Source of the DNA: Rhizobium brockwellii | Lineage (GTDB): Bacteria > Pseudomonadota > Alphaproteobacteria > Rhizobiales > Rhizobiaceae | Direction of reading: 5' to 3' | NCBI RefSeq assembly: GCF_000769405.2 | Contig: NZ_CP053439.1 | Coordinates: 3,840,001 to 3,904,000 of the forward strand | Length of the DNA stretch: 64,000 bases | Shown: positions 11,064-64,000 of the stretch, one piece after another | How the letters are laid out: every line of letters starts with the position of its first letter | Position numbering within the stretch: position 1 is the first letter of the stretch | Translations under genes and position numbers: made by a program | Notes under the pieces: generated by a model | The model's database searches: none | Told to the model about the DNA's origin: nothing | Seen by the model: only the letters and a program-made list of their open reading frames with translations

Positions 11064-11092
11064 GCGGTCGCGGAGCCGCTTGAAGACATCGA

Positions 11093-25337: not shown

Positions 25338-25555
25338 GAGCCTTTCCGGGTTAGATTGCAGCATTCTGCCGGAGCAGGTTTTCGCCAGGGCAGAGGCGAT
25401 TGGCGAAGGGCATACCTCTTGGTACGTCCAAGCCGATCGCCTCTGCCCTGGCGAAAAGATGCCCGGCCCTTCGGGTTGGCTGAAACGCGCCGGCTGATCG
25501 ACCATCCGACTCCGTTTGAGCCAACAGAATGCTTCAATCTAACCCGGAAAGGCTC
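25338..25555. repeat. Long palindromic intergenic element, copy 1 (218 bp)
   Basis: Terminal arms 25338-25368 and 25525-25555 are 31-bp inverted repeats with one mismatch (begin GAGCCTTTCCGGG). Inner arms 25379-25400 and 25436-25457 are a perfect 22-bp inverted repeat (begin TTTTCGCCAGGGCAG). The right end abuts CTAG and shares a base with the stop codon of the minus-strand EI24 gene. A second copy is at 60114-60382. Confidence 0.9.
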
Positions 25556-48480: not shown

Positions 48481-49427
48481 CCGCGTCGCCCCGAAGCCGA
48501 AGACCTCAAATTGTCGAGCAGCACTGCGATCAGCAGGATCAGCCCGCGGACCACATACTGATAGAACGCCTGGATATTCAAGAGGTTCATGACGTTTTCG
48601 GCAATGCCCATGATCAGCACGCCGACGATGACGCCACTCATCGCCGCCCGGCCGCCGGCCAGCGAAACACCGCCGAGAACGCAGGCCGAAATCACCGAAA
48701 GTTCAAGCCCTGTCGCCGCATTCGGCTGGCCGGAGGTGATGCGGGAGGCAAGCAGGATGCCGGCAATGCCGCAGACAAGTCCCTGCAGCGCAAAGATCCA
48801 GATGCGCATGTTGACGACATTGACGCCGGCAAGCCGAGAGGCCTCGGGATTGCCGCCGATAGCCAGCGTGTTCTTGCCGAAGACGGTGCGATTGAGCACG
48901 AAACCGAAGAGGATGAAAAGGATCAGCATGATCCAGATCGGCGTCGGCACGGTCAGAAATCGCGACAAGGCAAGCTGGTAGAAGGCGGGATCATTGATGC
49001 CGACGGCGCGGCCATCGGAGGCGATCAGCGCCAATCCGCGCACGATCTGCATGGTCGCAAGCGTGGTGATCAGCGCATTGATGCGAAAGCGCGCAATGAC
49101 GATACCATTGACGAAACCAACGACGGCGCCGCAAAACAGGGCGGCGAGCAGCCCGACGGGAATGGAGCCCGTCGCATTCGAGACCATCACCGCGATCATG
49201 CCGGAGAAGGCGACGATCGATCCGACCGACAGGTCGAAATCGCGAGATGCCAGGCAGAACATCATCGTGCAGGCGACGATGCCGATCGTGACGACCGATT
49301 GCAGCAGCCCCAGCATGTTTCGCTCGGTCAGAAAGTTCGGAACGAAGAGCGAGACGATCACGAAGGCGGCAGCGAAGATCACCACCAGCCCTTGTTCGCC
49401 GAGAAGGATTTTTTTCAACGAATTCAT
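48477..49427 (-). CDS. araH: L-arabinose/galactose ABC transporter permease
   Basis: A 316-residue permease of the ribose/arabinose class with about eight to ten membrane segments. Conserved stretches: CLASRDFDLSVGSIVAFSGM, GFVNGIVIARFRINALITTL and SVISACVLGGVSLAGGRAAM. The frame is open far upstream through araG antisense-like sequence; ATG 49427, 17 bp after the araG stop, is the natural start. Confidence 0.9.
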   Translation of the reverse strand: MNSLKKILLGEQGLVVIFAAAFVIVSLFVPNFLTERNMLGLLQSVVTIGIVACTMMFCLASRDFDLSVGSIVAFSGMIAVMVSNATGSIPVGLLAALFCGAVVGFVNGIVIARFRINALITTLATMQIVRGLALIASDGRAVGINDPAFYQLALSRFLTVPTPIWIMLILFILFGFVLNRTVFGKNTLAIGGNPEASRLAGVNVVNMRIWIFALQGLVCGIAGILLASRITSGQPNAATGLELSVISACVLGGVSLAGGRAAMSGVIVGVLIMGIAENVMNLLNIQAFYQYVVRGLILLIAVLLDNLRSSASGRRG

Positions 49428-49444
49428 CGTCCGTATTCCTGGTT

Positions 49445-50950
49445 TTAGATGGTGCCTGCGGCGTTCTTGTCGGGCAGCGCTGCCGTCAGGATACTGCGCT
49501 CGTCGAAATGCGGACGGGCGACATTGGCCGCCACCCTGCCCTGGCACATCACCATGATGCGATCGGAAATGCCCATGACTTCGGGCAACTCGCTGGATAT
49601 GACCACGATCGCCATGCCGCCGGCCGCAAGCTCGTAGAGGATTTCGTAGATTTCCGATTTCGCCCCGACATCGATGCCGCGCGTCGGCTCGTCGATGACG
49701 AGGACCTTGATCCCCTGCTCGGACAACCAGCGGCCGAGAATGACCTTCTGCTGGTTGCCGCCCGAGAGGTTGATGATGTCCTGCTTGCGCGACGGCGTCC
49801 GCACCCGAAGCTTGGCGATGAACCGATCTGCCAGCGCCGCTTCTTGTCTGGGGCTCAGAATGCCGAAGGGCGAAAAATGCCGGCGCGACGAGATCGCGAT
49901 ATTCTCTTCGATCGATCGCCCTTGGATGATGCCGTCGAACTTGCGGTCCTCGGGGCAAAGCACCATGCCGGCATTGATCGCCGCTTTCGGATTGTTCGGC
50001 GAAACGGCAACGCCGTCGATCGTGACCTGGCCCTGATGCCTGGTGTCGGCGCCGTAAAGCAGCCGCGCCATCTCGCTGCGGCCGGCGCCGATCAGGCCGA
50101 AGAAGCCGAGGATTTCGCCCTGGCGGACGGAAAAGCTGATTGGATGGCGCAGCCTCGGCCCCGATAGGCCCTTGACCTCCAGTCGCACGTCGCCGAGCGC
50201 GCGTTCGCGCCAGCCCCAGACATTGCTGATCTCGCGTCCGACCATTTCCGAGATAATCTGCTCGCGCGTGGTTTCGGCGATCTGAGGATGGTGGGCGGCA
50301 AGTTTGCCGTCGCGCAGCACCGTCAGGCTGTCGCAAAGACGGAAGATCTCGTCGAGGCGATGCGAGACGTAGAGAATGACCGTTCCCTTCGCCTTCAGCC
50401 TGTCGATGAGGGAAAACAGGATTTCGCTTTCGCGGGAGGAAAGCGAGGAGGTCGGCTCGTCGAGCGCAATCACCCGCGCATCGAGCATGACGGCCTTGGC
50501 GATCTCGACCATCTGCCGCGCACCGATCGAAAGCGAGGCGACCTTGGCCGACGGATCAACATCGATGCCGATCTCCTCGAGCTTCGACCGCACCGTCTCG
50601 ATCAGCGCCTTCGAATGGATGACGCCGCCCTTGGCCGGAAAGCGTCCGAGCCAGAGATTTTCGGCGACTGTCAACTCCGGAACGAGCTGTAGTTCCTGAT
50701 GGATGACGATGACGCCGGCATGGAAGGCGTCGCGGACGGACCCGTATCTCTGCTCCTCGCCGTCGATGAGGATGTTGCCGGCATCGGCCGCCTGATCGCC
50801 GGACAGTACACGGATCAGCGTCGATTTACCCGCTCCGTTTTCGCCCATCAGGCCGTGGACGGCGCCCTTCTCGACAGTGAAGGACACATCCGCCAGCGCC
50901 TGCACGCCGGGATAACCTTTGGAGATATTGCTGAATTCGAGGAAAGCCAT
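49445..50950 (-). CDS. araG: L-arabinose/galactose ABC transporter ATP-binding protein
   Basis: A 501-residue double ATPase of the AraG/RbsA class. The first half has Walker A GENGAGKST and signature LSIGARQMVEIAKAV; the second half has LIGAGRSEMARLLYG in place of a canonical Walker A, signature LSGGNQQKVILGRWL, and Walker B VLVIDEPTRGIDVG. ATG 50950 has GGAG upstream; the ATG just before it (50953) is the alternative. Located between araF and araH. Confidence 0.92.
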   Translation of the reverse strand: MAFLEFSNISKGYPGVQALADVSFTVEKGAVHGLMGENGAGKSTLIRVLSGDQAADAGNILIDGEEQRYGSVRDAFHAGVIVIHQELQLVPELTVAENLWLGRFPAKGGVIHSKALIETVRSKLEEIGIDVDPSAKVASLSIGARQMVEIAKAVMLDARVIALDEPTSSLSSRESEILFSLIDRLKAKGTVILYVSHRLDEIFRLCDSLTVLRDGKLAAHHPQIAETTREQIISEMVGREISNVWGWRERALGDVRLEVKGLSGPRLRHPISFSVRQGEILGFFGLIGAGRSEMARLLYGADTRHQGQVTIDGVAVSPNNPKAAINAGMVLCPEDRKFDGIIQGRSIEENIAISSRRHFSPFGILSPRQEAALADRFIAKLRVRTPSRKQDIINLSGGNQQKVILGRWLSEQGIKVLVIDEPTRGIDVGAKSEIYEILYELAAGGMAIVVISSELPEVMGISDRIMVMCQGRVAANVARPHFDERSILTAALPDKNAAGTI

Positions 50951-51020
50951 CATCGCTCCGCCGAGAAAGACCCGACGGCACGCTGAGCGGCCGCCGGACG
51001 ATATCATCTTGGAAGGACGA

Positions 51021-52004
51021 TCACTCGATGCCAAGATCCTTGCGGACCTTTTCATAATCGTCGCGCAGCGCTAGAGAACCCGAGGTCAGCGTCAGCTTTG
51101 CCGGCTCCTTGTCGTTGGCGATCCAGTCATACATGTTGAGCGCCGTCTCATAGCCGTGACGCTTCGGCGAGATGATGACAGTGCCGAAGAAGCCTGTCGC
51201 CGCCGGCTTCTTGAATTCATTGATCGCCGATTCGGCACCGCCGATGCCGACACCGATGACGTTGGCCGCCGGAATGCCGACCGATTCGGAAGCACGGACG
51301 GCGCCGAGGACGGCTTCGTCGTTGAGGCCGAAGGCGACCCAGTATTTCACGTCGGCATGCTTGTTGAGAACGGTGGTGGCCGCGTTGAGCGCCGCTTCCG
51401 TATCCGTCTTCGCCTGTGGCGCATCATAGATGTTTTCGGCCGGGAAGCCGGCGGACTTCAGCACCGACATCGCGCCTTCGACGCGGTCGACGGCGGTCGG
51501 CAGCTGGTCATAGGAGACCCGCACGGCGCCGACATTCTTCATGTCCCAGCCGCGCTTCTTGATTTCGTCGACGATCGCCTGGCCGACGGTCTCGCCGATC
51601 TTGGTCGCCGAAATGCCCATATGCGGCACGTCTTCCAGCGGCTTGCCGTCAGCGCTGACGAGGCGGTCGTCGACCGTCATCAGCTTCAGCTGGTTGGCTT
51701 CGGCCTTGGCGACGATGCCGGGGCCGAGCTTGACGTCGGGCGTGCAGATGATGAAGCCCTGCGCGCCCTGCGCGCCGAGATTATCGATCGCCGACTGGAC
51801 CTTCTCGCCGTCTTCGGCGCCGATCTTGACGACGGTGAAGCCCTTTTCCTTGGCGGCCTGGTCGGCGAATTTCCATTCGTCCTGAAACCAAGGCTCCTCA
51901 GGCTGCTTGACGATGAAGCCTATCTTGACGTCCGCGGAAAATGCCGAGCCGGCTGCCAGAATGGCGAAAGTGCCAGCCAGAACGGCTGCTTTGAACAAGC
52001 GCAT
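51021..52004 (-). CDS. araF: L-arabinose (galactose) periplasmic binding protein
   Basis: A 327-residue receptor with a signal peptide ending near GSAFSA. It follows E. coli AraF closely as I recall it: KIGFIVKQPEEPWFQDEWKF, GFIICTPDVKLGPGIVAKAE, ATKIGETVGQ and the VIGVGIGGAESA region. AraF-type proteins bind both L-arabinose and D-galactose, which differ only at C6. First gene of araFGH-epimerase-SDR and divergent from a GntR regulator. Confidence 0.92.
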   Translation of the reverse strand: MRLFKAAVLAGTFAILAAGSAFSADVKIGFIVKQPEEPWFQDEWKFADQAAKEKGFTVVKIGAEDGEKVQSAIDNLGAQGAQGFIICTPDVKLGPGIVAKAEANQLKLMTVDDRLVSADGKPLEDVPHMGISATKIGETVGQAIVDEIKKRGWDMKNVGAVRVSYDQLPTAVDRVEGAMSVLKSAGFPAENIYDAPQAKTDTEAALNAATTVLNKHADVKYWVAFGLNDEAVLGAVRASESVGIPAANVIGVGIGGAESAINEFKKPAATGFFGTVIISPKRHGYETALNMYDWIANDKEPAKLTLTSGSLALRDDYEKVRKDLGIE

Positions 52005-52065
52005 GTCTCTCTCCCTAAACTCTCAAAAACCGAGCAGCTGCCTCCCAGGCAACGTCCAATGAAAT

Positions 52066-52108
52066 ATGATAAATCATCATACCAGTCAATTGCCAATGTA
52101 TGATGATT
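52066..52108. promoter_or_regulatory. GntR-type operator between araF and gntR
   Basis: ATGAT-AA-ATCAT (52066-52077) is a perfect short dyad, and AATCATCATAC (52072-52082) with GTATGATGATT (52098-52108) is a perfect 11-bp inverted repeat with a 15-base spacer. It lies about 65 bases from the araF start, in the 213-bp divergent gap. Confidence 0.7.
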
Positions 52109-52217
52109 GGAATAATAGGATTATTGACGAGATGCCGGGAGGAAGCGTCGCAAAGCGGATCGAATTCGGATAATCAGGTTCGGTTGCCTAGCACGCGAGA
52201 CAGAGCGGAGAGGTGAG

Positions 52218-52973
52218 TTGGAAACAATCGAGCGACAGAGCGGGGCCGAAAGCCGCCGCATCGAGCGCCGCCCGCGCGTACGCCGCAACGTCACGGCGGC
52301 GATCGCTCAGGATATCTGTGCGGATCGCTATCCCGCGGGCTCGCCGCTGCCCCGCGAGAACGATCTCTGCGAACTCTATGGCGTCAGCCGCACCGTCATT
52401 CGCGAATCGCTGAAAGTGCTGGAATCCAAAGGCCTTGTCCGTGGCAAGCCGCGCATCGGAACCACCGTCTGCGATAAGGACGACTGGAATATCCTGGACG
52501 CTGACGTGCTTGAATGGATGGGTCCCTATATCAAGGATTTCGACCTGCTCGGCTGCATTCTCGAAGCCCGCCGCACCATCGAGCCGGCAGCCGCCGAATA
52601 TGCCGCCGAGCGCGCCAGCGCCCAGGAGATCGCCGATCTCGACAATGCCTGGCGGCAGATGCGCGACAGCGCCCGCGACCCGGAAAGCTTCACCGATGCC
52701 GACGTCATGTTCCACACGGTGCTGCTCACCGCCAGCCACAATCAGGTCTTTCGCCGGCTGTCGAGCGCCATTCACGCGGCGCTGAAATATGCGCTGCATG
52801 CCTCCAATATCGGTGTCGAGAACCGCGAGGATGCGGTGCTCGTTCACGGTCAGCTGGTCGAGGCCCTGCGCATGCGCGACAAGGCGGGCGCCCGTGAATG
52901 CGCCAACCGCATGCTCGATCTTGCGGTGCGCGATCTAGCCGCCGCCGAAAAAGCGATCGGCAGAACGAGATGA
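52218..52973 (+). CDS. FadR-subfamily GntR transcriptional regulator
   Basis: A 251-residue regulator. The winged HTH is AIAQDICADRYPAGSPLPRE, then NDLCELYGVSRTVIRESLKV. A C-terminal FCD domain follows with ARRTIEPAAAEYAAE and FHTVLLTASHNQ. TTG 52218 with GGAGAGGTGAG directly upstream is the only good start, as the nearby GTG is out of frame. It is divergent from araF and 66 bp upstream of dgoD, so it probably controls both; aldonate or a keto-deoxy acid is the likely effector. Confidence 0.9.
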   Translation: METIERQSGAESRRIERRPRVRRNVTAAIAQDICADRYPAGSPLPRENDLCELYGVSRTVIRESLKVLESKGLVRGKPRIGTTVCDKDDWNILDADVLEWMGPYIKDFDLLGCILEARRTIEPAAAEYAAERASAQEIADLDNAWRQMRDSARDPESFTDADVMFHTVLLTASHNQVFRRLSSAIHAALKYALHASNIGVENREDAVLVHGQLVEALRMRDKAGARECANRMLDLAVRDLAAAEKAIGRTR

Positions 52974-53039
52974 CCGATCACGACAAATCTGCGGACGCGC
53001 CGCCGATCGCAAACCCGGGAAGAGACTGAAAGAACAGCG

Positions 53040-54188
53040 ATGAAGATCACCAAACTCACCACCTATATCGTTCCACCGCGCTGGCTGTTTTTGAAGGTCG
53101 AGACCGACGAGGGCATCGTCGGCTGGGGTGAACCTGTTGTCGAAGGCCGCGCTCTCACCGTTCAGGCCGCCGTCCATGAGCTGGAAGACTACCTGATCGG
53201 CAAGGACCCCTTCTTGATCGAGGACCACTGGACCGTGATGTATCGCGGCGGCTTCTATCGCGGCGGCGCCGTCCACATGAGCGCGATCTCGGGCATCGAC
53301 CAGGCGCTGTGGGACATCAAAGGCAAGGCGCTCGGCCAGCCGATCCATTCCCTGCTCGGCGGCCAGCTCCGTGATCGCATCAAGGTCTATTCCTGGATCG
53401 GCGGCGATCGTCCCTCGGATGTCGCCAACAATGCCAAGGAAGTGGTTGCCCGTGGTTTCAAGGCGATCAAGCTCAATGGCTGCGAGGAAATGCAGATCGT
53501 CGACACCAACGAGAAGGTGGAGAAAGCAGTCGAGACCATCGCCGCCATCCGTGAGGCAATCGGCCCGCATATCGGTATCGGCGTCGATTTCCACGGCCGC
53601 GTCCACAAGCCGATGGCGAAGGTTCTCGCCAAGGAGCTCGATCCCTACAAGCTGATGTTCATCGAAGAGCCGGTGCTTTCCGAAAACAAGGAAGCGCTGC
53701 GCGATATCGTCAATCATACGTCGACGCCGATCGCGCTCGGCGAGCGGCTCTTTTCGCGCTGGGACTTCAAGCAGGTTCTGTCCGACGGCTATGTCGACAT
53801 CATCCAGCCGGATCTGTCCCATGCCGGCGGCATCACCGAATGCCGCAAGATCGCGGCGATGGCCGAAGCCTATGACGTGGCGCTGGCGCCGCATTGCCCG
53901 CTGGGTCCGATCGCGCTCGCCGCCTGCCTGCAGGTCGATGCCGTCAGCTACAATGCCTTTATCCAGGAACAGAGCCTCGGCATCCACTACAACAAGGGCA
54001 ACGACATCCTCGACTACATCTCCAACAAGGAGGTGTTCCAGTATGCCGATGGTTTCGTCTCGATCCCGCAGGGTCCGGGTCTCGGCATCGAGGTCGACGA
54101 AACCTATGTCATCGAGCGCGCGAAGGAAGGTCACCGCTGGCGCAACCCGATCTGGCGGCACGCCGACGGCAGCTTCGCCGAGTGGTGA
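53040..54188 (+). CDS. dgoD: D-galactonate dehydratase
   Basis: Dehydrates D-galactonate to 2-dehydro-3-deoxy-D-galactonate (enolase superfamily). The 382-residue length and sequence match E. coli DgoD as recalled: [66 protein letters not shown] and [12 protein letters not shown]. Metal ligands are expected in VDFHG, FIEEP and LGERLF; the catalytic histidine lies in APHCPLGP. The ribosome site is weak and translation may follow from gntR. It makes galactose oxidation the likely role of this locus. Confidence 0.94.
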
Positions 54189-54190
54189 GA

Positions 54191-54239
54191 GCGCATAACC
54201 CCGAAAATCGGAACCGATTTTCGGAAAGGATTGTGCGCA
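54191..54239. repeat. GCGCATAA palindromic repeat, copy 2
   Basis: GCGCATAACCCCGAAAATCG on the left mirrors CGATTTTCGG...TGTGCGC on the right. Closely related to 27372-27420. It starts two bases after the dgoD stop and may serve as its terminator. Confidence 0.8.
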
Positions 54240-54341
54240 ATTCAAAGTGATAGGGTCGCGCAAGCGGCCCTTTTTCATTCCCCGTGTAGGATATCGCGTG
54301 TCTCGTCCGTCATAGTCGAAGCTCAAAGAGGAGACTTCAAA

Positions 54342-54737
54342 ATGGCCAGAGCAATCGCAATCATCGTCGCCCGCATCATCTTCAGCTTCGTCTTCTTCAT
54401 GGCCGCCGGCTTCAAGTTCGCCGATATCGGTGCGACGGCCGGCTATATCACCGCTGCCGGCTTTCCGATGGCGACATTCCTTGCCTGGGTCGCCGCCTTC
54501 TTCGAGATCGCGCTGGCGCTCGCTTTTATATCAGGGGCCTTCTTCACCGAGGCCAGCTTTCTCGCAGCCATCTATGTGATCTTCCTCGCTTTCGCCTTCC
54601 ACGGTCCGTCCCATTGGCAACAGAACCAGGCCGAATTCGGATTCTTCATCGATCACTTTACCTTCCTCGCCGGTCTGCTCTTTGCCGCCGTCCACGGGCC
54701 TGAGAAATGGGCGTTGAAGCAAACCCTTCTAAGATAA
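54342..54737 (+). CDS. DoxX family membrane protein
   Basis: A 131-residue protein with four hydrophobic segments: IAIIVARIIFSFVFFMAAGF at the start, FLAWVAAFFEIALALAFISG in the middle, and a C-terminal FFIDHFTFLAGLLFAAVHGP. Fits the DoxX/DoxD family (quinone-linked or unknown function). GAGGAG precedes ATG 54342; the frame upstream runs into the repeat. It is followed by an SDR gene 75 bp away on the same strand. Confidence 0.8.
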   Translation: MARAIAIIVARIIFSFVFFMAAGFKFADIGATAGYITAAGFPMATFLAWVAAFFEIALALAFISGAFFTEASFLAAIYVIFLAFAFHGPSHWQQNQAEFGFFIDHFTFLAGLLFAAVHGPEKWALKQTLLR

Positions 54738-54812
54738 CCGAGACGACCCGCCTCCTTCCGGAACCAACTGCCGCGCCGAACAGTTGGCATGTCGGCAAAG
54801 GAGAGCCCGCCC

Positions 54813-55592
54813 ATGGAGCTGAAGGAAAAGATCGCATTGGTAACAGGCGCCGGTTCGGGCATCGGCAAAGCGGCCGCGTTGCGGCTCGCCGCCGAGGGGG
54901 CAAGGGTGGCCTCACTGAGCCGCACCGCCGACGAGGTCGAAAAGACCTGCGCCGAAATCAAGGCCGCCGGCGGCCAGTCGATCGCGTTGACGGCAGATAC
55001 CAGCGACGAAGCTCAAATGCGGGGCGCCGTCGCGCAACTGGCCGACACCTTCGGCGGTCTCGACATCGTTGTCGCCAATGCTGGGATCAACGGTGTCTGG
55101 GCGCCGATCGACGATCTCAAGCCGGATGAATGGGACAAGACGATCGCCGTCAATCTGCGCGGCACCTATCTGACGCTGCATCTGACGGTTCCGCATCTGA
55201 AGCGCCATGGCGGTTCGATCATCGTCGTCTCTTCGATCAACGGCACCCGTACCTTCACCACACCGGGCGCCACCGCCTACAGCGCAACCAAGGCCGGCCA
55301 GGTCGCCATGGTCCAGCAGCTCGCCCTCGAACTCGGCCGGCACGGCATCCGCGTCAATGCCGTCTGCCCCGGCGAGATCGAGACCAATATCAGAGCCAAT
55401 ACCGACAGCCGCCACCGCGAGGAAACGGAGGTTCCAGTTATCTGGCCTGAGGGCGATATTCCGATTGCTGGCGGCAAGGCAGGCAAGAGCGAGGATGTCG
55501 CCGAAACAATCCTTTTCCTCGCATCCGAGCGCGCCCGACACATCACCGGTACGCCGATCTGGATCGACGGCGGCCAGGGTCTGCTGCGATAG
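54813..55592 (+). CDS. SDR family oxidoreductase
   Basis: A 259-residue short-chain dehydrogenase. TGAGSGIG at about 12-19, VANAGING in place of NNAG, a serine pair in VVSSINGTRTF and catalytic YSATKAG. A loop WPEGDIPIAGGKAGKSEDVA precedes the C-terminus. ATG 54813 has AAAGGAGA seven bases upstream and is preferred to 54789. Substrate unknown. It is convergent with the cyclase gene. Confidence 0.9.
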   Translation: MELKEKIALVTGAGSGIGKAAALRLAAEGARVASLSRTADEVEKTCAEIKAAGGQSIALTADTSDEAQMRGAVAQLADTFGGLDIVVANAGINGVWAPIDDLKPDEWDKTIAVNLRGTYLTLHLTVPHLKRHGGSIIVVSSINGTRTFTTPGATAYSATKAGQVAMVQQLALELGRHGIRVNAVCPGEIETNIRANTDSRHREETEVPVIWPEGDIPIAGGKAGKSEDVAETILFLASERARHITGTPIWIDGGQGLLR

Positions 55593-55609: not shown

Positions 55610-56827
55610 TCAGCCGTTCAGCCGGGCGCTGTCGAGGGTATACAGTTCCTGCGCGCGCTGCACGCCCCGCAACGCATAGCGTCCGACGCAGGCGAGTGCG
55701 GTACGCTGCTGCTCCGGTATCACCGCGGCGAAATCGGAGGAGATCAACAGGTTGAGATCGACGGAACGACACATCGAGGCGATCCGGCTGACCTCGTTGA
55801 CGGCAGGTCCGATGACGGTGAAGTCCAAGCGGTCCTGGCTGCCGATATTGCCGTAGAAGACATCGCCGATATGCAGGCCGATATAGACGTCGGTCGTCGC
55901 CCGGCCGTCGGCCGCACGCGCAGCATTCAGCGTGGTCAGCTTTTCCCGCAGCAACGATTCAGCGCTCAGCGCCGCACGACATGTCTCCGCCGGCACCTCG
56001 CCCTTAAAGATGGCGAGCACACCGTCGCCGATCAGTTTCAGCACGTTGCCGCCGGACTCGTGGACCGCCGTGATCACCGCCTCGCTATAGTCGTTGAGCA
56101 GCGGGATGATCTCCTCCGGCGGCACGCTATCGGAGATCTTGGTGTAGTTCAGCAGATCGGAAAACCAGAGCGCTGCGGAAATCCGTTCCGATTTGCCGCG
56201 GCTGATCTTGCCTTCCATCACCTGGCGCGCGGCGTCCTCGCCGAGATAGACCTCCGCGATGGTGCGGGCGATACGCCCGAGCGCGATGCATTTGATCGCC
56301 AGCCCCAACACCGGCACCAGCTTGCGCAGGATGGCGAGGTCGTGATCGGAAAAGCCCTCAGGATGTTTCGTCGCGAAATGCGAGAAGAAGCAATCCATCT
56401 CGCCGATCGTGCCGGCCTCGGAAAAACGATGCACCATCGCCACGAAATCCGTGTGGCCGGCTTCAGCGATCGTATCGAGCATGGAGAAATCGATCGGATC
56501 GCCGAAGCCGAGACGCCGGCGTATCTCCCGTTCGTTGCGAGACCAAAGATGAAAGAAGGCCGAACGCTGCCAGTTCGACGCCGCCTCCCCCGAGATCGTC
56601 GGACCATATTCGAATTCGGTCTGGACTTCCTCGACGCTATCCCAGCGGAAAGCGCGGCCCTCATGCACCGGATGCAGCGTATCCATCAGCGCCAGACCAC
56701 GGTCGAGCGGCAGGCCGGCATCCCTGCAAGCCGAGCAGAAACCGGTCATCAACTCGGCTTCCGAAGCGCCCTTCAGTCCCTGCTCCGTGATCCAGGCTGC
56801 AATCGTGCTGACGTCGCTGTAATCCAT
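55610..56827 (-). CDS. Class III adenylate cyclase with N-terminal sensor-like domain
   Basis: A 405-residue soluble nucleotide cyclase. Residues about 1-195 form an N-terminal region common in rhizobial cyclases, of unknown ligand. The catalytic domain has metal aspartates D224 (LWFSDLLNYTKISD) and D268 (GGNVLKLIGDGV), adenine-selecting K264 and D335 (RLDFTVIG), and transition-state N344 and R348 in GPAVNEVSR, so it should make cAMP and be active as a homodimer. ATG 56827 has GGTGAG upstream. It lies 65 bp downstream of a LacI regulator on the same strand. Confidence 0.9.
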   Translation of the reverse strand: MDYSDVSTIAAWITEQGLKGASEAELMTGFCSACRDAGLPLDRGLALMDTLHPVHEGRAFRWDSVEEVQTEFEYGPTISGEAASNWQRSAFFHLWSRNEREIRRRLGFGDPIDFSMLDTIAEAGHTDFVAMVHRFSEAGTIGEMDCFFSHFATKHPEGFSDHDLAILRKLVPVLGLAIKCIALGRIARTIAEVYLGEDAARQVMEGKISRGKSERISAALWFSDLLNYTKISDSVPPEEIIPLLNDYSEAVITAVHESGGNVLKLIGDGVLAIFKGEVPAETCRAALSAESLLREKLTTLNAARAADGRATTDVYIGLHIGDVFYGNIGSQDRLDFTVIGPAVNEVSRIASMCRSVDLNLLISSDFAAVIPEQQRTALACVGRYALRGVQRAQELYTLDSARLNG

Positions 56828-56892
56828 GTCGCTCACCTTCACTCGTGTCAAAGCTGTAGCCCGAATTCGGCATCGAAGGAAAGTCAATTGGC

Positions 56893-57918
56893 TCAATCGG
56901 CCGCGGGCATATTGTAGGGCGTGACGATTTCGACTGTTGAAAGCGAGGGCGTAACCGCGCGCGGCAAGGCGGTCGCCCGGCTCATGATAGCCCGGAAGGC
57001 CGAACGCGCATCGGTTCTGAGATCATGATGCAGCACGAAGCCGATCCGACGCGCCGCAAGCAGGGCGCGATTATCGGCATCGAGGTCATGAGCGACGAAA
57101 ACGCGCACGGGACGTTTGGCCATGTCGAAGGCCGCAAGCACCGCCCGGTTACCGCCGCCGATCGAATAGACGGCGTTGATGGCAGGGTCGACAGCAAGCG
57201 CTGCCGCGGCAAGCGTTCCCGTCGCAGCATCGGTGCCGTGGCCCTCGCTGATCTCGGTAATGCCGATATCGGGATAGCGGGCGCGGATGACGCGGCGAAA
57301 GCCGATTTCGCGCTCCTCCTCGCCGCGGAACCGTCCGCTCGACAGCGTTACCAGCACTTTGCCGCCATCACTGCCGAGGAATTCGCCGATCAGATAGGCG
57401 GCAGTCTCTCCCGCTGCCCGGTTGTCGGCGCCGGCATAGGCGATGCGGGCCGAATTCGGCAGATCGGTCACCAGCGTCACGACGGGAATGCCGGCCGCGT
57501 CCGCCCTGGCAACGGCGGCCGCCACCTCGGCGACGTCAGGCGCCTTGAGCACGATACCGTGCGTGCCGCGCAATCGGATGCGATCGAGAAGCTGCACCAG
57601 TTCGGCCGGCTTCATCACCTCGGCAAAATGGAAGCGGCAGCGGAAAACGCCCGGCAGGAAGGTCGCCATCTCCGCCTCGAAGGCGGCCCGCACCGCATCG
57701 CTGAAACGCTGCGGCGTCTCCATGACAATATCGATCGCCAGCATGCGGCCGCTGCCCATCGTCCCGGCCTGCTGCTTCTCCAGCTCCGCGATCGCCGCCT
57801 TCACCCGCATCTCGGTCTGCCGGCGCACGCCGGGTCTGCCATTCAGCACCCGGTCGACGGTGGCGGTGCTGAGCCCGGCCTGGAAGGCGATGTCCTTGAC
57901 GAGAAAGAGGTGTGCCAT
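56893..57918 (-). CDS. LacI family transcriptional regulator
   Basis: A 341-residue regulator. HTH: LVKDIAFQAGLSTATVDRVL then NGRPGVRRQTEMRV. The periplasmic-binding-protein-like domain follows (LAIDIVMETPQRFSDAVRAA, VVTLVTDLPNSARIAYAGAD, VYSIGGGNRAVLAAFDMAKR). It belongs to the group with ribose-type sensor domains. It is divergent from the PhyH-type dioxygenase gene by 95 bp and likely controls that cluster; it could also influence the downstream cyclase gene. Confidence 0.9.
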   Translation of the reverse strand: MAHLFLVKDIAFQAGLSTATVDRVLNGRPGVRRQTEMRVKAAIAELEKQQAGTMGSGRMLAIDIVMETPQRFSDAVRAAFEAEMATFLPGVFRCRFHFAEVMKPAELVQLLDRIRLRGTHGIVLKAPDVAEVAAAVARADAAGIPVVTLVTDLPNSARIAYAGADNRAAGETAAYLIGEFLGSDGGKVLVTLSSGRFRGEEEREIGFRRVIRARYPDIGITEISEGHGTDAATGTLAAAALAVDPAINAVYSIGGGNRAVLAAFDMAKRPVRVFVAHDLDADNRALLAARRIGFVLHHDLRTDARSAFRAIMSRATALPRAVTPSLSTVEIVTPYNMPAAD

Positions 57919-58013
57919 GCGATCGGCCTGATGGTTTTTTGATGGATTCCTGATCTATATCACCCGGCGTCGCGGCGTATAGTGCCCCCATTGGAAAGAG
58001 GGAGGAGCCCGCC

Positions 58014-59201
58014 ATGAAAACCGACAACCAGCAGAAACTGCGCGCCGACCGCGTCTGGCTGAGCGAAGACGCCTGCGATCTCGATGAGTTTCGCGCCCTT
58101 GCGGAAAAGACCACCGTGCTTGCCGATTACCCCTCGGCGTCCGCGGTCGAAAAAAACGTGCTGATCTATGACAGCCGCAAGGTGATGACGGCGGCCGCAA
58201 CGCCGGAAGGCCGACGTGCCGTGTTGGCGGAAATCTGCGAGGCCTTCGGCGAAGGCCCTGGTGTCGTCGTGTTCAAGCGCGCTTACGAAGACACCAGCAT
58301 CATCGACCGCGCCAGCACGATCTTCGATGCGATCATCGAGGAACAACACCGCACCTCGACCGGCGGTGGCGACCACTTCGCCAAACCTGGCGCCAACGAC
58401 CGCATCTGGAACTCGCTGGAAAAACATTGCCTCGCCGATCCGGCAAATTTCGCCGAATATTACGGCAACACCATCATCGCTCTGGCAAGTGAAGCCTGGC
58501 TCGGCCCGAGCTACCAGATGACGGCGCAGGTCAACCGCGTCAATCCGGGCGGCTCGGCGCAGTCGGCACATCGCGACTACCATCTCGGCTTTCAGTCCTC
58601 AAAGGTGATCGAGCAGTTCCCGGCGCATGTGCATCGGCTCTCGCCGGTGCTGACATTGCAGGGTGCGGTCGCCCATTGCGATATGCCGCTCGAAAGCGGC
58701 CCGACACTCTTCCTGCCGCACAGCCAGACCTATGTGCCGGGCTATCTCGCGCTGAAACGGCAGGAGTTCCGGGATTATTTCGAGACCAACCATGTCCAGT
58801 TGCCGCTCGAAAAAGGCGACGTCGTCTTCTTCAATCCCGCCCTCTTCCACGCCGCCGGCACCAACCGCTCGGTCGACATCAAGCGCGTCGCCAACCTCCT
58901 GCAGGTCTCCTCCGCCTTCGGCCGGGCAATGGAAACCGTCAACCGCGAGAGGATGAGCGCCAGGCTGTTTCCCGCTTTGAAGACCTTGCAGGGCAGGCTC
59001 TCGCCTGACGAAATCGCCAACTCCGTCGCCGCCTGCGCCGAGGGCTACTCCTTCCCGACCAATCTCGACCGCGACCCGCCACTTGGCGGACTGGCGCCGA
59101 AAACACAGGCGCAGCTGATGCACGAGGCGCTGAAGGAAGGCTGGAGCGATGAAGCCTTTACGGCAGCACTTGCCGAGCAGGCGCAGAAGAAGTTGAGCTG
59201 A
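58014..59201 (+). CDS. Phytanoyl-CoA dioxygenase (PhyH) family protein
   Basis: A 395-residue Fe(II)/2-oxoglutarate dioxygenase of the PhyH fold. The facial triad is H186-x-D188 in SAHRDYHLG and H279 in ALFHAAGTNRS, with R285 placed to bind 2-oxoglutarate. GSAQSAHRDYH and LESGPTLFLPHSQTY are typical of the family. Members hydroxylate very varied small molecules, so no substrate is assigned. GGGAGGAG precedes the ATG. It is first in a row with an SDR and an SMP-30 lactonase and divergent from a LacI regulator. Confidence 0.88.
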   Translation: MKTDNQQKLRADRVWLSEDACDLDEFRALAEKTTVLADYPSASAVEKNVLIYDSRKVMTAAATPEGRRAVLAEICEAFGEGPGVVVFKRAYEDTSIIDRASTIFDAIIEEQHRTSTGGGDHFAKPGANDRIWNSLEKHCLADPANFAEYYGNTIIALASEAWLGPSYQMTAQVNRVNPGGSAQSAHRDYHLGFQSSKVIEQFPAHVHRLSPVLTLQGAVAHCDMPLESGPTLFLPHSQTYVPGYLALKRQEFRDYFETNHVQLPLEKGDVVFFNPALFHAAGTNRSVDIKRVANLLQVSSAFGRAMETVNRERMSARLFPALKTLQGRLSPDEIANSVAACAEGYSFPTNLDRDPPLGGLAPKTQAQLMHEALKEGWSDEAFTAALAEQAQKKLS

Positions 59202-59240
59202 TTTGGAAGCTCGAACCTCTGGCGTCCACTGACATAAAGG

Positions 59241-59260
59241 CCTCCCGCACCCGCGGGAGG
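59241..59260 (+). terminator. Hairpin after the PhyH-type gene
   Basis: CCTCCCGC (59241-59248) and GCGGGAGG (59253-59260) form a perfect 8-bp stem with a 4-base loop, 32 bases before the SDR start. No T-run; more likely an intercistronic hairpin than a full terminator. Confidence 0.55.
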
Positions 59261-59292
59261 TCATTCGTACATCATCACAATGGAGGAACCAC

Positions 59293-60114
59293 ATGAGCAC
59301 AGAGCACGGCCGCCTCGACGGCAAGATCGCCATCGTCACCGGCGGCACGCAAGGATTGGGCGCGACCATCGCCCGCCTCTTCGCCGAACGCGGCGCCGAA
59401 GGCATCGTTATCTGCGGCCGCAACGAAGCCAAGGGCAAGGCAAAGGCGGCGGAGATTTCGGTCGCGACCGGCGCCAGGATCGTCTACGTCAAAGCCGACC
59501 TCGGCAAGGTCGAGGAAGCACAGCATGTCGTGCGCGCCTGCGACGAGACCTTCGGCCGTGTCGACGCCTTGGTCAATGCCGCCGCCATCACCGATCGCGG
59601 CACCATCCTCGACACCAGCCCTGAGCTCTTCGACGCCATGTTCGCCGTCAATGTGCGTGCGCCGTTTTTCCTGATGCAGGAGGCAGTGAAGGTCATGCGC
59701 CGCGAAAACATCGAGGGTACGATCGTCAATATCGGCTCGATGTCGGCCAAAGCTGGCCAGCCCTTCATCGCCGCCTATTGTGCCTCCAAGGGCGCGCTGG
59801 AAACGCTGACGAAGAACACAGCCTACGCGCTCCTGCGCAACCGCATCCGCGTCAACGGTCTGAACATCGGCTGGATGGCCTCCGAGGGCGAGGACCGGAT
59901 CCAGCGCGAATATCACGATGCCCCCGCCGACTGGCTGGAGAAGGCGGCGGCAAGCCAGCCCTTCGGCCGCCTCGTCGATCCGCACGAGGTGGCGCGCGCC
60001 TGCGCTTACCTGTCATCGTCCGAATCCGGCCTGATGACCGGCTCGGTCATCTGCTTCGACCAGTCGATCTGGGGCGCTTATGACGGCTCGCCGCATCCGG
60101 TCGCGGCCCTCTAG
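59293..60114 (+). CDS. SDR family oxidoreductase
   Basis: A 273-residue short-chain dehydrogenase. TGGTQGLG at about 17-24, VNAAAITD in place of NNAG, a serine in NIGSMSAKAG, catalytic YCASKGA. The C-terminus has a long lid (SEGEDRIQREYHDAPADWLE) and ends SVICFDQSIWGAYD. GGAGG lies upstream of the ATG. Its TAG stop lies at the edge of the palindromic element. Together with the PhyH and SMP-30 genes it suggests sequential oxidation of a polyol or sugar-like compound. Confidence 0.9.
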   Translation: MSTEHGRLDGKIAIVTGGTQGLGATIARLFAERGAEGIVICGRNEAKGKAKAAEISVATGARIVYVKADLGKVEEAQHVVRACDETFGRVDALVNAAAITDRGTILDTSPELFDAMFAVNVRAPFFLMQEAVKVMRRENIEGTIVNIGSMSAKAGQPFIAAYCASKGALETLTKNTAYALLRNRIRVNGLNIGWMASEGEDRIQREYHDAPADWLEKAAASQPFGRLVDPHEVARACAYLSSSESGLMTGSVICFDQSIWGAYDGSPHPVAAL

Positions 60115-60382
60115 AGCCTTTCCTGGTCAGCTTGAAGCATTCTGCCGAAGCAGGTTTTCGTTAGGGCAGAGGCGATTGGCGACGGGCATACCTCTTGGTA
60201 CGTCCGAGCCGATCGCCTCTGATCCTGGCGCAAAGATGCCCGGCCCTTCGGGTTGGCTGAAACGGGCCGCCTGATCGACCGGCCGGCTTGGCCGTAGAGC
60301 TTGGCCACGACGCGCGCCGGCCGGTCGACCATCCGACTCCGTTTGAGCCAACAGAATGCTTCAAGTTGACCAGGAAAGGCTC
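60114..60382. repeat. Long palindromic intergenic element, copy 2 (269 bp)
   Basis: Terminal arms 60114-60144 and 60352-60382 are 31-bp inverted repeats with one mismatch (begin GAGCCTTTCCTGG). The inner palindrome is less perfect than in copy 1 (25338-25555). The left end abuts CTAG, which carries the SDR stop codon. It is 51 bp longer than copy 1, almost all from one insertion at 60281-60330. Confidence 0.9.
60275..60330. mobile_element. Nested palindromic insertion with direct repeat
   Basis: Relative to copy 1, bases 60281-60330 are extra. They are flanked by direct repeats TCGACC (60275-60280 and 60325-60330). GACCGGCCGGC (60277-60287) and GCCGGCCGGTC (60316-60326) are perfect 11-bp inverted repeats. 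It looks like a miniature element that inserted with a 6-bp duplication, or a palindromic slippage product. Confidence 0.6.
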
Positions 60383-60479
60383 TACGAAACCGGAGTCCGG
60401 CATTTCCATCGCCGGGCTCTGGCACCTCCAGCTTTTTGCCGCTAGGAAAAGAACGGCAGCATTCAGGGAGGAAACTGGC

Positions 60480-61391
60480 ATGGGCGACAATCCGATTTAT
60501 GAGATCCGCGACGAACGCTTCGGTGCAATGGTCATCGGCAGCGCCGGCCTTGAGGAGCTTTATTCCGGCTGCCGCTGGACGGAAGGCCCGGTCTGGTTTT
60601 CCGACCTGAACTGTCTCCTCTGGAGCGATATCCCGAATGAACGCATGATGCGCTGGACACCGGACGGTACCGTCTCCGTCTTCCGCTCGCCCTCCAACTA
60701 CGTCAACGGCAACACCCGCGACCGGCAGGGCCGGTTGGTCTCTTGCGAACATGGCGGCCGCCGCGTCACCCGCACCGAGACGGACGGCACCATCACCGTT
60801 CTCGCCGACAGCTACCAGGGCAAGCGGCTGAACTCGCCGAACGACGTCGTCGTGCACTCAGACGGCGGGGTCTGGTTCACTGATCCGACCTACGGCATCC
60901 TGTCGGATTACGAGGGCCACAAGGCCGAGCCCGAGCAGCCGACGCGCAATGTCTATCGGGTCGATCCGGCAAGCGGCGCGATCGACGCCGTCGTCGAAGA
61001 TTTCATCCAGCCGAACGGCCTTGCCTTCTCGCCCGATGAGACGAAGCTCTACATTGCCGATTCCGGCTCCGCAAAACATGAAGTGCCGCGCCATATCCGC
61101 GTTTTCGACGTCACCGACGGCAAGGCGCTTGCCAACAGCCGCTACTTCTGCAGCCTCGATGTCGGCCATCCCGACGGCTTCCGTTTCGATGTCGCCGGCA
61201 ATCTCTGGACGAGTGCCTCCGACGGCGTGCACTGCTTTTCGCCCGACGGAACGCTGCTCGGCAAGATCAGGGTGCCGCAGACGGTGTCCAACCTCACCTT
61301 CGGCGGCCTCAAGAAAAACCGGCTCTTCATCACCGCGACGCGTTCGGTCTATTCGATCTATATCAAGACGACCGGCGCACAATATCCATAG
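60480..61391 (+). CDS. SMP-30/gluconolactonase family protein
   Basis: A 303-residue six-bladed beta-propeller lactonase. The metal-site glutamate is in CRWTEGPVWFSD; further signature segments are YVNGNTRDRQGRLVSCEHGG, RLNSPNDVVVHSDGGVWFTD and FIQPNGLAFSPDETKLYIAD. It hydrolyses sugar lactones, giving the free acid after a dehydrogenase. ATG 60480 has GGGAGG upstream; the longer open frame to 60288 would translate the repeat and is rejected. It converges on the ThuA gene. Confidence 0.92.
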   Translation: MGDNPIYEIRDERFGAMVIGSAGLEELYSGCRWTEGPVWFSDLNCLLWSDIPNERMMRWTPDGTVSVFRSPSNYVNGNTRDRQGRLVSCEHGGRRVTRTETDGTITVLADSYQGKRLNSPNDVVVHSDGGVWFTDPTYGILSDYEGHKAEPEQPTRNVYRVDPASGAIDAVVEDFIQPNGLAFSPDETKLYIADSGSAKHEVPRHIRVFDVTDGKALANSRYFCSLDVGHPDGFRFDVAGNLWTSASDGVHCFSPDGTLLGKIRVPQTVSNLTFGGLKKNRLFITATRSVYSIYIKTTGAQYP

Positions 61392-61392
61392 A

Positions 61393-62142
61393 TCAGGCCT
61401 TCGCCTTGTCGGGGCGGCCGTGCAGCGGCTCGGCCCGATGCCAGTTTTCCAGGATGCGGCCATCGGTGTGTTTCTGCCGCGCCCAGCGGATGCCGTTCGA
61501 GATCACCTTTTGCACGATCTTGTCGTGATAGATCGGGTAGGTCTCGTGGCCGGGGCTGAAGAAGAAGATGCGGCCGCGCCCACGCTGGAAGGTGCAGCCG
61601 CTGCGGAACACTTCGCCGCCGGAATACCAGGAAATGAACACCAGCTCATCCGGCTGCGGAATGTCGAAGGGCTCGCCATACATTTCCGAGGCATTGACCT
61701 CGAAATAGGGCGGCAGCCCCTCGGCGATCGGATGCGAGGGATTGACCACCCAGACGCGCTCCAAGTCGCCTTCCGGCGTCTCGCGCCAGGAAAGGTTGGC
61801 ATTGGTCCCCATCAGCCGGCGGAAGAGTTTGGAATGATGGCCAGAATGCAGGACCAGCAGGCCCATGCCCTTCAGCACGCGCTGCTGCACGCGGTCGATC
61901 AGCCCGTCGCTGACCTCTTCATGCGCCATATGCCCCCACCAGAGCAGCACGTCGGTGTCATCGAGCACGGAATCCGGCAGTCCTTCATCCGGATCGTCTA
62001 GCGTACCGCGGCGGACCTCGAAATCGGGGTGGGCGATACCGGCAGCGATCGCTCCGTCGATACGATCAGGATAGATATCCTGAACTTCCTTGTGGACCTG
62101 CTCGTGGCGTCCTTCGTTCCAGATCGTGACCTTGATTGTCAT
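61393..62142 (-). CDS. ThuA domain protein
   Basis: A 249-residue ThuA-like protein with a class I glutamine-amidotransferase-like fold. Visible features: VTIWNEGRHEQVHKEVQDIY, TDVLLWWGHMAHEEVSDGLI, LLVLHSGHHSKLFRRLMG and FFFSPGHETYPIYHDKIVQK. ThuA is tied to disaccharide use in rhizobia and other members sit in sugar keto-derivative clusters; the reaction is unsettled. It overlaps the upstream ATPase gene by 4 bp, so it is in the transporter operon. Convergent with the SMP-30 gene, one base apart. Confidence 0.88.
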   Translation of the reverse strand: MTIKVTIWNEGRHEQVHKEVQDIYPDRIDGAIAAGIAHPDFEVRRGTLDDPDEGLPDSVLDDTDVLLWWGHMAHEEVSDGLIDRVQQRVLKGMGLLVLHSGHHSKLFRRLMGTNANLSWRETPEGDLERVWVVNPSHPIAEGLPPYFEVNASEMYGEPFDIPQPDELVFISWYSGGEVFRSGCTFQRGRGRIFFFSPGHETYPIYHDKIVQKVISNGIRWARQKHTDGRILENWHRAEPLHGRPDKAKA

Positions 62143-63242
62143 GTCATTCCTCGATGTGTTTCAAGCTGTGCCGAACGGATTACCCGGCCGGCGGAATCAA
62201 ACAGATGGCAACCGGCGCGCTCGGCAGTCAGCGACACGCGATCGCCGGGGCGAATGGTCATGTCGCCTTCCGTGCGTACGACGATCGGCTGCTGCTGCGA
62301 ACCGACTGTCAGATAGGTCTCCACGCCCAAACGCTCGACGATGACGACCTCGGCCGAAAAATCACCCTGCCCTTGGGGTGCGAGCTTCAGATGTTCCGGC
62401 CGAATGCCGAGTTTCGCCTCGCCCTGCTGCACGGCGCCATTGGCGTCTGAAAGGTCGATGGAAAGGCCGAGCGGACTTTCCAGATGCACCTTGCCGGCAT
62501 CCCGGCGCGTCGCCGTCATCGGCAGCACGTTCATCTTTGGCGAGCCGATGAAGGTTGCGACAAATTCATTGTCCGGCTGATGGTAGAGATCCATCGGCGC
62601 GCCCTGTTGAGCGACGAGGCCCTTGTTCAGCACGACGATGCGGTCTGCCATCGTCATCGCTTCGACCTGGTCGTGCGTGACATACACTACTGTCGCCTTC
62701 AACTCGCGGTGCAGGCGCTGCAACTCGGCGCGCATCTGCACGCGCAGCGCCGAATCGAGGTTCGACAGCGGCTCGTCGAACAGGATCAGCGCCGGTTTCT
62801 TGATGATGGCGCGGCCGATCGCCACGCGCTGGCGCTGGCCGCCGGAGAGGGCGGCCGGGCGGCGGTCGAGGTAGTCGGTGAGCTGCAGGATCTCGGCGAC
62901 ACCTTCCACCTGTCGGCGGATCTCCGCCTCGGGCACCTTCTTCAGGCTGAGCGAGAAGCCGATATTTTCGGCAACGCTCATATGCGGATAGAGCGCATAG
63001 GACTGGAACACCATGGCGATGCCACGTTTGTCGGGCGGCACGTCGTTGATGCGCTTGCCGTTGAGGATGAGGTCGCCGTCATCGATGCCTTCGAGGCCGG
63101 CGATCATGCGCAGCAGCGTGGACTTGCCGCAGCCGGACGGGCCGACGAAGACCGCGAATTCGCCGTCTTCCACCGTGATGTCGACGCCCTTGATGACCTC
63201 GAGCGCGCCGTAGAACTTGCGAACGTTTCTGAGATTGATCAT
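62139..63242 (-). CDS. Sugar ABC transporter ATP-binding protein (UgpC/MalK type)
   Basis: A 367-residue ATPase. Walker [11 protein letters not shown]-loop [11 protein letters not shown], signature [15 protein letters not shown], Walker [13 protein letters not shown] and H-loop [10 protein letters not shown], then a C-terminal MalK-like regulatory domain with the IRPEHLKLAP segment. Distinct from smoK (31492-32490) but of the same class. Overlaps ThuA by 4 bp and is 19 bp from the permease gene. Confidence 0.92.
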   Translation of the reverse strand: MINLRNVRKFYGALEVIKGVDITVEDGEFAVFVGPSGCGKSTLLRMIAGLEGIDDGDLILNGKRINDVPPDKRGIAMVFQSYALYPHMSVAENIGFSLSLKKVPEAEIRRQVEGVAEILQLTDYLDRRPAALSGGQRQRVAIGRAIIKKPALILFDEPLSNLDSALRVQMRAELQRLHRELKATVVYVTHDQVEAMTMADRIVVLNKGLVAQQGAPMDLYHQPDNEFVATFIGSPKMNVLPMTATRRDAGKVHLESPLGLSIDLSDANGAVQQGEAKLGIRPEHLKLAPQGQGDFSAEVVIVERLGVETYLTVGSQQQPIVVRTEGDMTIRPGDRVSLTAERAGCHLFDSAGRVIRSAQLETHRGMT

Positions 63243-63261
63243 CTGTTTCTCTTTCTTGATC

Positions 63262-64000
63262 TCAGCCCTTCACGCCGCCCGAGAATGTCTGGACGAGGAA
63301 GCGCCGCGCAAAACCGAAGGCGACGACGGCAGGCAGCAGGTAGATGAATGCCAGCGCCGTCAGCAGGCCGTAATCGATCTCGTTGATGCGCAGAAATGCG
63401 CGGAAGAGACCGAGCGGCAGCGTCTGCAGCTCCGGCGACGACAGGAGGATCAGCGGCAGCAGGAAATCGCCCCAGGCCGACATGAAGGCGAAGAGACCGG
63501 CGGCGGCAAGGCCCGGCAGCGCCAGCGGAATCAGCACCCGTCGAATGCGTTGGATGAGTGTTGCCCCATCCATCAGCGCCGCCTCCTCGTAGTCCCTCGG
63601 CAGCCCGTCGAAGAAGGTCTTCATGATCCAGAGCGCCAGCGGCAATTGCATTGTCGCCAGCACCAGGATCAGCCCGAGATAACCGTCGATGAAACCTGTC
63701 CAGCGCATGATGTCGCGGGCATAGCTGCCAAAGATCGGCCTGAGCACTGCCGCTTCCGCATTGTTCAACGTCAGCAGGAATTTGTAGAGCGGCACGACCA
63801 GCGCCGTCGGCGGCAACACCCGGATGAGCAGGATCGCGTAGAGGAAGGGCAGCTTCCACCAGGCCCGGGTGCGCGACAGCGCATAACCGCCGAGCCCCGA
63901 AAGCACCATGACGAGCAGCGTCGCGCCACCGACCACGAAGAGCGAGTTGAACAGCCACTTCGCGCCGTCTTCCTTGGTGAAGACCCTGATATAGTTGGCG
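63262..64000 (-). CDS. Sugar ABC transporter permease, MalG type (5' end outside window)
   Basis: An inner-membrane permease of which the last ~246 residues are visible; the frame is open to the window edge (ANYIRVFTKEDGAKWLFNSL). EAA motif: EEAALMDGATLIQRIRRVLI then PLALPGLAAAGLFAFMSAWG. It ends ARRFLVQTFSGGVKG, the usual MalG-type C-terminus. A second permease and the binding protein are expected just beyond the window. Confidence 0.92.
   Translation of the reverse strand, partial: ANYIRVFTKEDGAKWLFNSLFVVGGATLLVMVLSGLGGYALSRTRAWWKLPFLYAILLIRVLPPTALVVPLYKFLLTLNNAEAAVLRPIFGSYARDIMRWTGFIDGYLGLILVLATMQLPLALWIMKTFFDGLPRDYEEAALMDGATLIQRIRRVLIPLALPGLAAAGLFAFMSAWGDFLLPLILLSSPELQTLPLGLFRAFLRINEIDYGLLTALAFIYLLPAVVAFGFARRFLVQTFSGGVKG

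Follow-up and report, generated by a model that had tools for sequence, protein, structure and literature searches.

Among described systems, those closest to the locus analysed here are the moc/iol catabolism of rhizobia, the thuEFGKAB trehalose operon of Sinorhizobium and the kanamycin B dioxygenase KanJ. To our knowledge, none of the iol or moc gene sets described so far includes an enzyme of the PhyH family, and a search of the open-licence literature also gave none. The locus occupies the end of a 64,000-nucleotide stretch of Rhizobium brockwellii DNA (C1:3840001-3904000 of the 7.1-Mb genome, hereafter the window). It brings together a LacI-type regulator (LacI1), a PhyH Fe(II)/2-oxoglutarate (2OG) dioxygenase and a short-chain dehydrogenase/reductase (SDR), which we call module A, an SMP-30/gluconolactonase-like gene, and a ThuA/ABC transporter operon (module B) that meets the former tail to tail, ThuA being convergent with SMP-30. 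We read the interval as two modules, of which A would be a cyclitol-oxidising set feeding the iol pathway, and put the probability of this reading as a whole at about 0.7.

Module A resembles moc/iol catabolism in that rhizopine-type binding proteins and IolE-/IolG-type genes lie beside PhyH in several lineages, and a MocE-type ferredoxin in two loci; it differs in that iolD is elsewhere in the R. brockwellii genome (C1:1114374, away from the PhyH locus). Module B shares with thuEFGKAB the binding protein, two permeases, the UgpC-type ATPase, ThuA and a Gfo/Idh/MocA dehydrogenase, but has a LacI (LacI2) and a GH2 gene of its own.

Two adjacent modules

PhyH (58014-59201, + strand, 395 aa; PF05721, E 5.7e-34) has its best named matches in R. 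ruizarguesonis and R. leguminosarum, at 97-98% identity, which places the host in the R. leguminosarum complex. H186, D188, H279 and R291, which we take from the superfamily to be the iron- and 2OG-binding residues, were invariant across 52 aligned PhyH sequences and make up the HxD...H triad plus the 2OG arginine (alignments A2 and A3 omit L143, whose PhyH has internal stops). An AlphaFold2 model displayed a confident 2OG-oxygenase fold. The iron and 2OG site is thus intact in all 52, and 2OG-dependent oxidation is predicted from these residues. The adjoining SDR (59293-60114, + strand) belongs to the NCBIfam PRK06198 subfamily (477.6 bits, cut-off 240). The genes listed in the initial annotation (LacI, PhyH, SDR, SMP-30, ThuA and ABC genes) were all confirmed in place by open reading frames (ORFs) and Pfam/NCBIfam profiles.

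Neighbourhoods were compared in the best 80 of 571 confirmed genome stretches with PhyH, and in eight plasmid loci viewed out of 48 PhyH-bearing records and picked for spread; the short loci L099-L127 were excluded from the counts. LacI1 was found in 61 of the 80 genome loci, the SDR in 59 and both in 55, and the LacI1-PhyH-SDR trio ranges from Rhizobiaceae to Streptomyces. On plasmids, LacI1 stood beside PhyH, or in Pantoea beside the SDR, in seven of the eight loci, and the SDR adjoined PhyH in three; in the Agrobacterium plasmid locus (L011), PhyH is followed by a Gfo/Idh/MocA gene instead of the SDR. In the PhyH tree, the actinobacterial clade whose loci have LacI1 and the SDR is joined to the one holding the R. 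brockwellii PhyH (support 89/84). Module A is apparently a compact set that has spread horizontally. PhyH genes of Rhodobacteraceae type have neighbours (MutS, a class IV aminotransferase, argininosuccinate synthase) with no apparent relation to them, at loci without LacI1 and SDR; what Ensifer-type loci share around PhyH (for instance NAD+ synthase and bluB in L012) may be no more than ordinary synteny.

The relation between the two halves was studied in 148 Rhizobium genomes, with module B scored by its binding protein. PhyH was present in 118 and the binding protein in 69, and both occurred in 58 genomes against 55.0 expected (Fisher p=0.31). The halves were adjacent in 41 of these 58 and apart in 17, sixteen of the latter having them on different contigs, some of which may be assembly breaks, and one (G473) having them 138 kb apart on a single contig. 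Adjacency is thus common inside Rhizobium, yet presence is independent. Among the loci viewed, module B stood beside module A in Rhizobium only. The halves have separate LacI genes and differ in their conserved promoter elements. We conclude that these are very probably two independent, separately controlled modules. The initial annotation had proposed a single pathway: the ABC system would import a glycoside, which PhyH would hydroxylate and the SDR oxidise before SMP-30 opened the product. It had named conserved co-occurrence of the halves as one of its tests, and the presence/absence data go against such co-occurrence. Adjacency in 41 of the 148 genomes speaks for this pathway, but the independent presence, the 17 genomes with separate halves, the separate regulators and promoter elements, a Pararhizobium locus (A13) with the complete ThuA-to-LacI2 block plus GH2 and no PhyH within the 21 kb viewed, and the behaviour of SMP-30 described below make it very improbable. 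On wider sampling, the whole interval as one pathway was unsupported.

Within the window, module B comprises ThuA, the last gene of the operon (61393-62142; PF06283, E 1.1e-34), a UgpC/MalK-type ABC ATPase (62139-63242; Pfam/NCBIfam) and a MalG-type permease cut by the window end (63262-64000; NCBIfam), all on the - strand. Extension past the window, the check that had been suggested, showed that the ABC operon carries on outside and reaches the binding protein: a second permease and the binding protein are followed by a divergent Gfo/Idh/MocA dehydrogenase, LacI2 and GH2 (L009:10175-17123). The thu-type set is therefore complete, as it is in L169, L170 and L171. The sole PDB match of ThuA was the ThuA-like 1t0b (E 1.8e-92), and the binding protein weakly resembles named sugar-binding models. 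The block from ThuA to LacI2 was found in eight loci including this one. In ten others (10 of the 18 SMP-30-bearing loci) SMP-30 is followed by GH2 and the block is absent, with sharp edges at the ThuA stop and just past LacI2 (L009 ~7393 to 14703). Related blocks in Martelella and Rhizobium WL3 adjoin sulfatases or mannonate dehydratase. The promoter element of module B, TTGTGTAATCGTGTGCACAA, is an imperfect inverted repeat (L009:12623-12642) located before the dehydrogenase and identical in Pararhizobium L169; it has no occurrence within the window and is likely the LacI2 operator. Module B appears to be an ordinary thu-like glycoside uptake/oxidation module, separate from A.

SMP-30 (60480-61391, + strand; PF08450, E 2.4e-51) lies by the SDR in 18 loci including this one, all of them Rhizobium or 'Rhizobiales bacterium' records. 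The SDR is present in 59 of the 80 genome loci versus 17 of 80 for SMP-30, and a S. meliloti homologue (83%) sits in a neighbourhood without PhyH. The neighbourhood comparison thus speaks against the proposed partnership with PhyH, which is not conserved outside Rhizobium-type loci. This lack of a conserved SDR-SMP-30 pairing also led us to reject a route resembling the sulfo-Entner-Doudoroff pathway, with SDR plus lactonase. In one locus with module B (L038:12174-13179), the interval between SDR and ThuA has no matched SMP-30 ORF while DNA similarity persists.

Module A and inositol catabolism

Inositol or rhizopine-type markers were sought within ~10 kb of PhyH. They were present in 15 of 15 actinobacterial loci, with genes of iolB/C/D/E type in 12, and in 7 of the 20 loci sampled across the order, with iolB/C/D/E in 4, compared with 1 of 20 control stretches taken from 14 of those 20 genomes at hand-picked coordinates; the counts include L143 in spite of its internal stops, and fall to 13/13 and 5/18 without L016, L084, L142 and L144, which supplied marker sequences. 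The actinobacterial loci do not amount to 15 independent cases, since 14 are from Streptomyces and share gene order. In L142, an iolD above cut-off is accompanied by IolB-, IolC-, IolE- and aldolase-type genes, and at L144 PhyH shares the locus with a rhizopine-type binding protein, with iolE and iolG above cut-off and with a PRK06198 SDR, the same subfamily as that of R. brockwellii. In the PhyH tree, inositol-linked copies (under labels looser than those of the marker counts) fall on several separate branches. The one control stretch with markers (L178, G256:C8:20000-39900) carries iolB/C/D/E/J-type genes on PhyH's contig, ~90-110 kb away from it.

A phylogenetic profile across genomes of the order (iolD E<=1e-150, PhyH E<=1e-60) found iolD in 29 of 30 genomes with PhyH versus 134 of 367 others (p=2.4e-11), genome size and lifestyle being uncontrolled; the one genome that departs from this is 67% complete and has a partial gene. 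The association persisted outside the family of R. brockwellii (21/22 versus 123/354, p=1e-8) and when counted by genus (13/14 versus 45/127, p=4e-5).

Published expression data point in the same direction. An RNA-seq study of Ensifer adhaerens OV14 on Arabidopsis roots reports nine core genes as down-regulated from day 1 to day 7 (PMC6637203): a rhizopine-binding protein, an ABC ATPase and a permease with neighbouring tags, a Gfo/Idh/MocA gene, an inositol 2-dehydrogenase, the iolC kinase, a PhyH and two phage genes, that is, one PhyH and six inositol/rhizopine or neighbouring transporter genes. By the locus tags quoted there, counted in steps of five, this PhyH is ~1650 genes from iolC. In E. 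adhaerens Lc04, the orthologue of the R. brockwellii PhyH is 1.78 Mb from iolC and the one further PhyH-family match lies at 0.98 Mb, so that, assuming a similar gene order, the down-regulated OV14 gene is probably the same orthologue; this match rests on map position and a 78% identity figure, and the 86% to S. meliloti quoted for it differs from the 79-81% computed for E. adhaerens proteins. R. mesoamericanum STM3625 carries module A (L035). In a study of this strain on Mimosa exudate, iol and moc-like genes were induced, pinitol was the most concentrated exudate component measured, and inositol use was called a key pathway for nodulation competitiveness (PMC5789663).

Besides the qualifications attached above to the marker counts, the iolD profile and the OV14 match, several results weigh against a cyclitol role. 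Neither LacI1 nor the SDR was found at 15 of the 80 genome PhyH loci. No inositol marker lay within ~10 kb of PhyH in any of 37 Rhizobium/Ensifer-type loci (PhyH identity ~70% or more), in 29 more whose PhyH is less similar or in five of seven other plasmid loci, so that the physical clustering with iol genes seen in actinobacterial loci is absent from the host lineage. As a sign of demethylation, purU was the only C1 gene sought across loci, and L013 is the single locus that has it. A PhyH fold search and a PDB profile search for a substrate hint returned only the generic 2OG fold, the AlphaFold2 fold being non-discriminating. The OV14 co-cultivation medium contained myo-inositol (PMC6637203), and PhyH is not named among the induced STM3625 genes in the section consulted (PMC5789663). 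PDB searches with LacI1, the SDR and the module B dehydrogenase gave no ligand clue.

These results bear on whether PhyH acts on a non-cyclitol substrate, the inositol link then arising because large, plant-associated or soil genomes carry both. Such an explanation draws on the 0/37 close loci, on the profile not being controlled for genome size, and on the iol cluster held by a control stretch, but it sits poorly with the persistence of the iolD association outside the family and by genus, with physical linkage on several separate (if loosely labelled) tree branches and with the OV14 co-response, and we consider it unlikely. We regard it as quite likely that module A serves in inositol-linked cyclitol oxidation, as an entry branch to iol. 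The initial annotation had suggested an imported glycoside, cyclitol or sugar-like substrate; the neighbourhoods, the profile and the expression data favour its cyclitol option for the PhyH/SDR half, while the idea of a shared import pathway was not supported. In two loci (L013:14231-25191 and L141:11237-17881), PhyH lies near a MocE-type ferredoxin, together in L013 with a desaturase-family protein and purU; these neighbours may point to a second oxygenase for methylated cyclitols next to PhyH.

LacI1, its promoter repeat and the surrounding DNA

The LacI-family hinge-helix motif is YxPNxxARxL. LacI1 (56893-57918, - strand) has a LacI-type helix-turn-helix (HTH; PF00356, 40.9 bits, cut-off 27) and an RbsB-like effector domain (PF13407, Peripla_BP_4), and the motif is missing in it and in 11 aligned relatives while present in LacI2 (YQPNAIARSL). 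The intergenic region between LacI1 and PhyH carries TGATGGTTTTTTGATGGATT, an 11-bp unit repeated twice in direct orientation; the predicted operator, with the repeats TGATGGTTTTT/TGATGGATT at an 11-bp period, spans 57929-57948 (+ strand) and is the sole such site in the window at <=2 mismatches. No palindrome (arms >=7, gap <=2, <=1 mismatch) was detected in the same region by a finder that also missed the presumed LacI2 element.

The pattern TGAKGNNTTTTTGAKGNNTT (<=1 mismatch) was present in 18 of 19 genomes or records, each time at the PhyH promoter, and the remaining record has a two-mismatch site in place. There was exactly one site in 17 of the 19, one Streptomyces having a second site elsewhere, and the pattern read backwards matched once over all 19. 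Among 108 PhyH loci, scored with fixed chosen thresholds for adjacency and skipping those with <250 bases around the PhyH start, the direct repeat (<=2 mismatches) was found in 66 of 69 scored with LacI1 versus 8 of 39 scored without, a class that is impure in that four of its eight motif-bearing loci (L053, L054, L084, L088) do carry LacI1. Two loci that do possess LacI1 and the motif, L095 and L098, were scored without either because the PhyH ORF was called too long. On the opposite strand, the repeat occurred in none of the 108 loci, nor in 20 shuffles per locus. The repeat does not stem from a coding extension of LacI1, since its distance from the LacI1 start varies widely in length and falls in each of the three frames (26, 19 and 13 of 58 loci).

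A survey of LacI regulators describes their operators as palindromes, most of which have CG at the centre (PMC4052901). LacI1 is like the surveyed proteins in its LacI-type HTH, sugar-binding-type effector domain and site at its own divergent promoter, but differs in the lack of the hinge motif and in the direct repeat, the survey having sought palindromic motifs (PMC4052901). The repeat is the presumed LacI1 operator, and it is unusual for a LacI-type regulator to lack the hinge and to go with a direct repeat at its promoter. Regulators of this kind make up a conserved group, spanning Proteobacteria to Actinobacteria, that is paired with the element. The LacI1 regulon was also tried as a route to a transporter, and the search revealed none because there is a single TGAKGNNTTTTTGAKGNNTT site per genome in 17 of 19.

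Next to LacI1, and overlapping it by 4 bases, an adenylate/guanylate cyclase-domain protein (55610-56896, - strand; Pfam) has a cluster that spans 18 loci, all Rhizobium-type, and adjoins LacI1 in those only; it is probably outside module A. Just upstream (48477-55592), the translations read by eye suggest an RbsA/B/C-like sugar ABC system, a GntR-type regulator, an enolase-superfamily-like protein and an SDR.

Between the SDR and SMP-30 lies a 265-bp repeat (60115-60379) resembling a miniature inverted-repeat transposable element (MITE), with terminal inverted repeats of ~30 bp and apparently flanked by TA. The genome holds eight near-full copies, this one included, and a broken copy is found in the window at 25339-25552. 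The gap from SDR to SMP-30 is ~365 bp here versus ~95-165 bp, by coordinates, in 16 of 17 relatives. In L022, where the SDR ends at 12102 and SMP-30 lies at 12403, the gap of ~300 bp is longer than in the other relatives and may reflect an insertion there too. The longer SMP-30 ORF, starting at 60288, begins within the repeat, and the true start is probably the ATG at 60480, which follows the putative ribosome-binding site AGGGAGGAA.

Candidate reactions of module A

Methyl-inositols, pinitol among them, are major cyclitols of legumes. In the mechanism that we propose, PhyH would attack a substituted inositol with Fe(II), O2 and 2-oxoglutarate, most likely removing the O-methyl group from a methyl-inositol such as pinitol or ononitol, with inositol and formaldehyde as the products. 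The SDR would interconvert ring alcohol and ketone, allowing entry at inosose, and module A would in this way feed the iol pathway encoded elsewhere in the genome. LacI1 would sense the cyclitol or its product and control the divergent promoter through the 11-bp direct-repeat operator. O-demethylation is the likeliest single reaction because an oxygenase is needed for it, a substrate of iol is produced and legume chemistry fits. As a specific assignment it stays tentative: OV14 does not support it directly, because the medium held myo-inositol and nothing there points to a methyl-inositol. Neither a dioxygenase of such a role nor bacterial removal of the methyl group from methyl-inositols was found in the open-licence literature.

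KanJ suggests a different chemistry. In a KanJ-like reaction, PhyH would hydroxylate the ring carbon bearing NH2 (inosamine, the rhizopine core) or OCH3, releasing ammonia or methanol and leaving an inosose, and the SDR would then reduce or oxidise the ring. KanJ and KanK act in this manner on kanamycin B, a reaction on which a search of the open-licence literature returned no paper, KanJ being biosynthetic and not catabolic. Judging also by PDB titles, KanJ is likewise an Fe/2OG enzyme acting on an aminocyclitol glycoside, but PhyH has only 16-19% identity to it and fungal 2OG enzymes match equally well; we hold this reaction to be improbable. Alternatively, a deoxy-inositol (quercitol, viburnitol) could be hydroxylated by PhyH to an inositol for the iol pathway. 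This would need only a simple Fe/2OG C-H hydroxylation and shares all the evidence for an inositol link, but nothing is specific to deoxy-inositols, which are rarer in legumes than methyl-inositols, and we judge it quite improbable.

Returning to O-demethylation, module A would represent a new entry into iol, in which an Fe/2OG O-demethylase and an SDR allow rhizobia, streptomycetes and others to use methyl-inositols under a hinge-less LacI whose 11-bp direct-repeat operator is conserved from Alphaproteobacteria to Actinobacteria; in this full form we regard the proposal as possible, though on the doubtful side. For the locus itself, adjacency in one genome had hinted at a pathway that wider sampling fails to support. 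If the dioxygenase route is true, it would provide a concrete gene set for how bacteria strip the methyl group from methyl-inositols, and a hinge-less LacI using a direct repeat would, if true, extend the known modes of DNA recognition of the LacI family.

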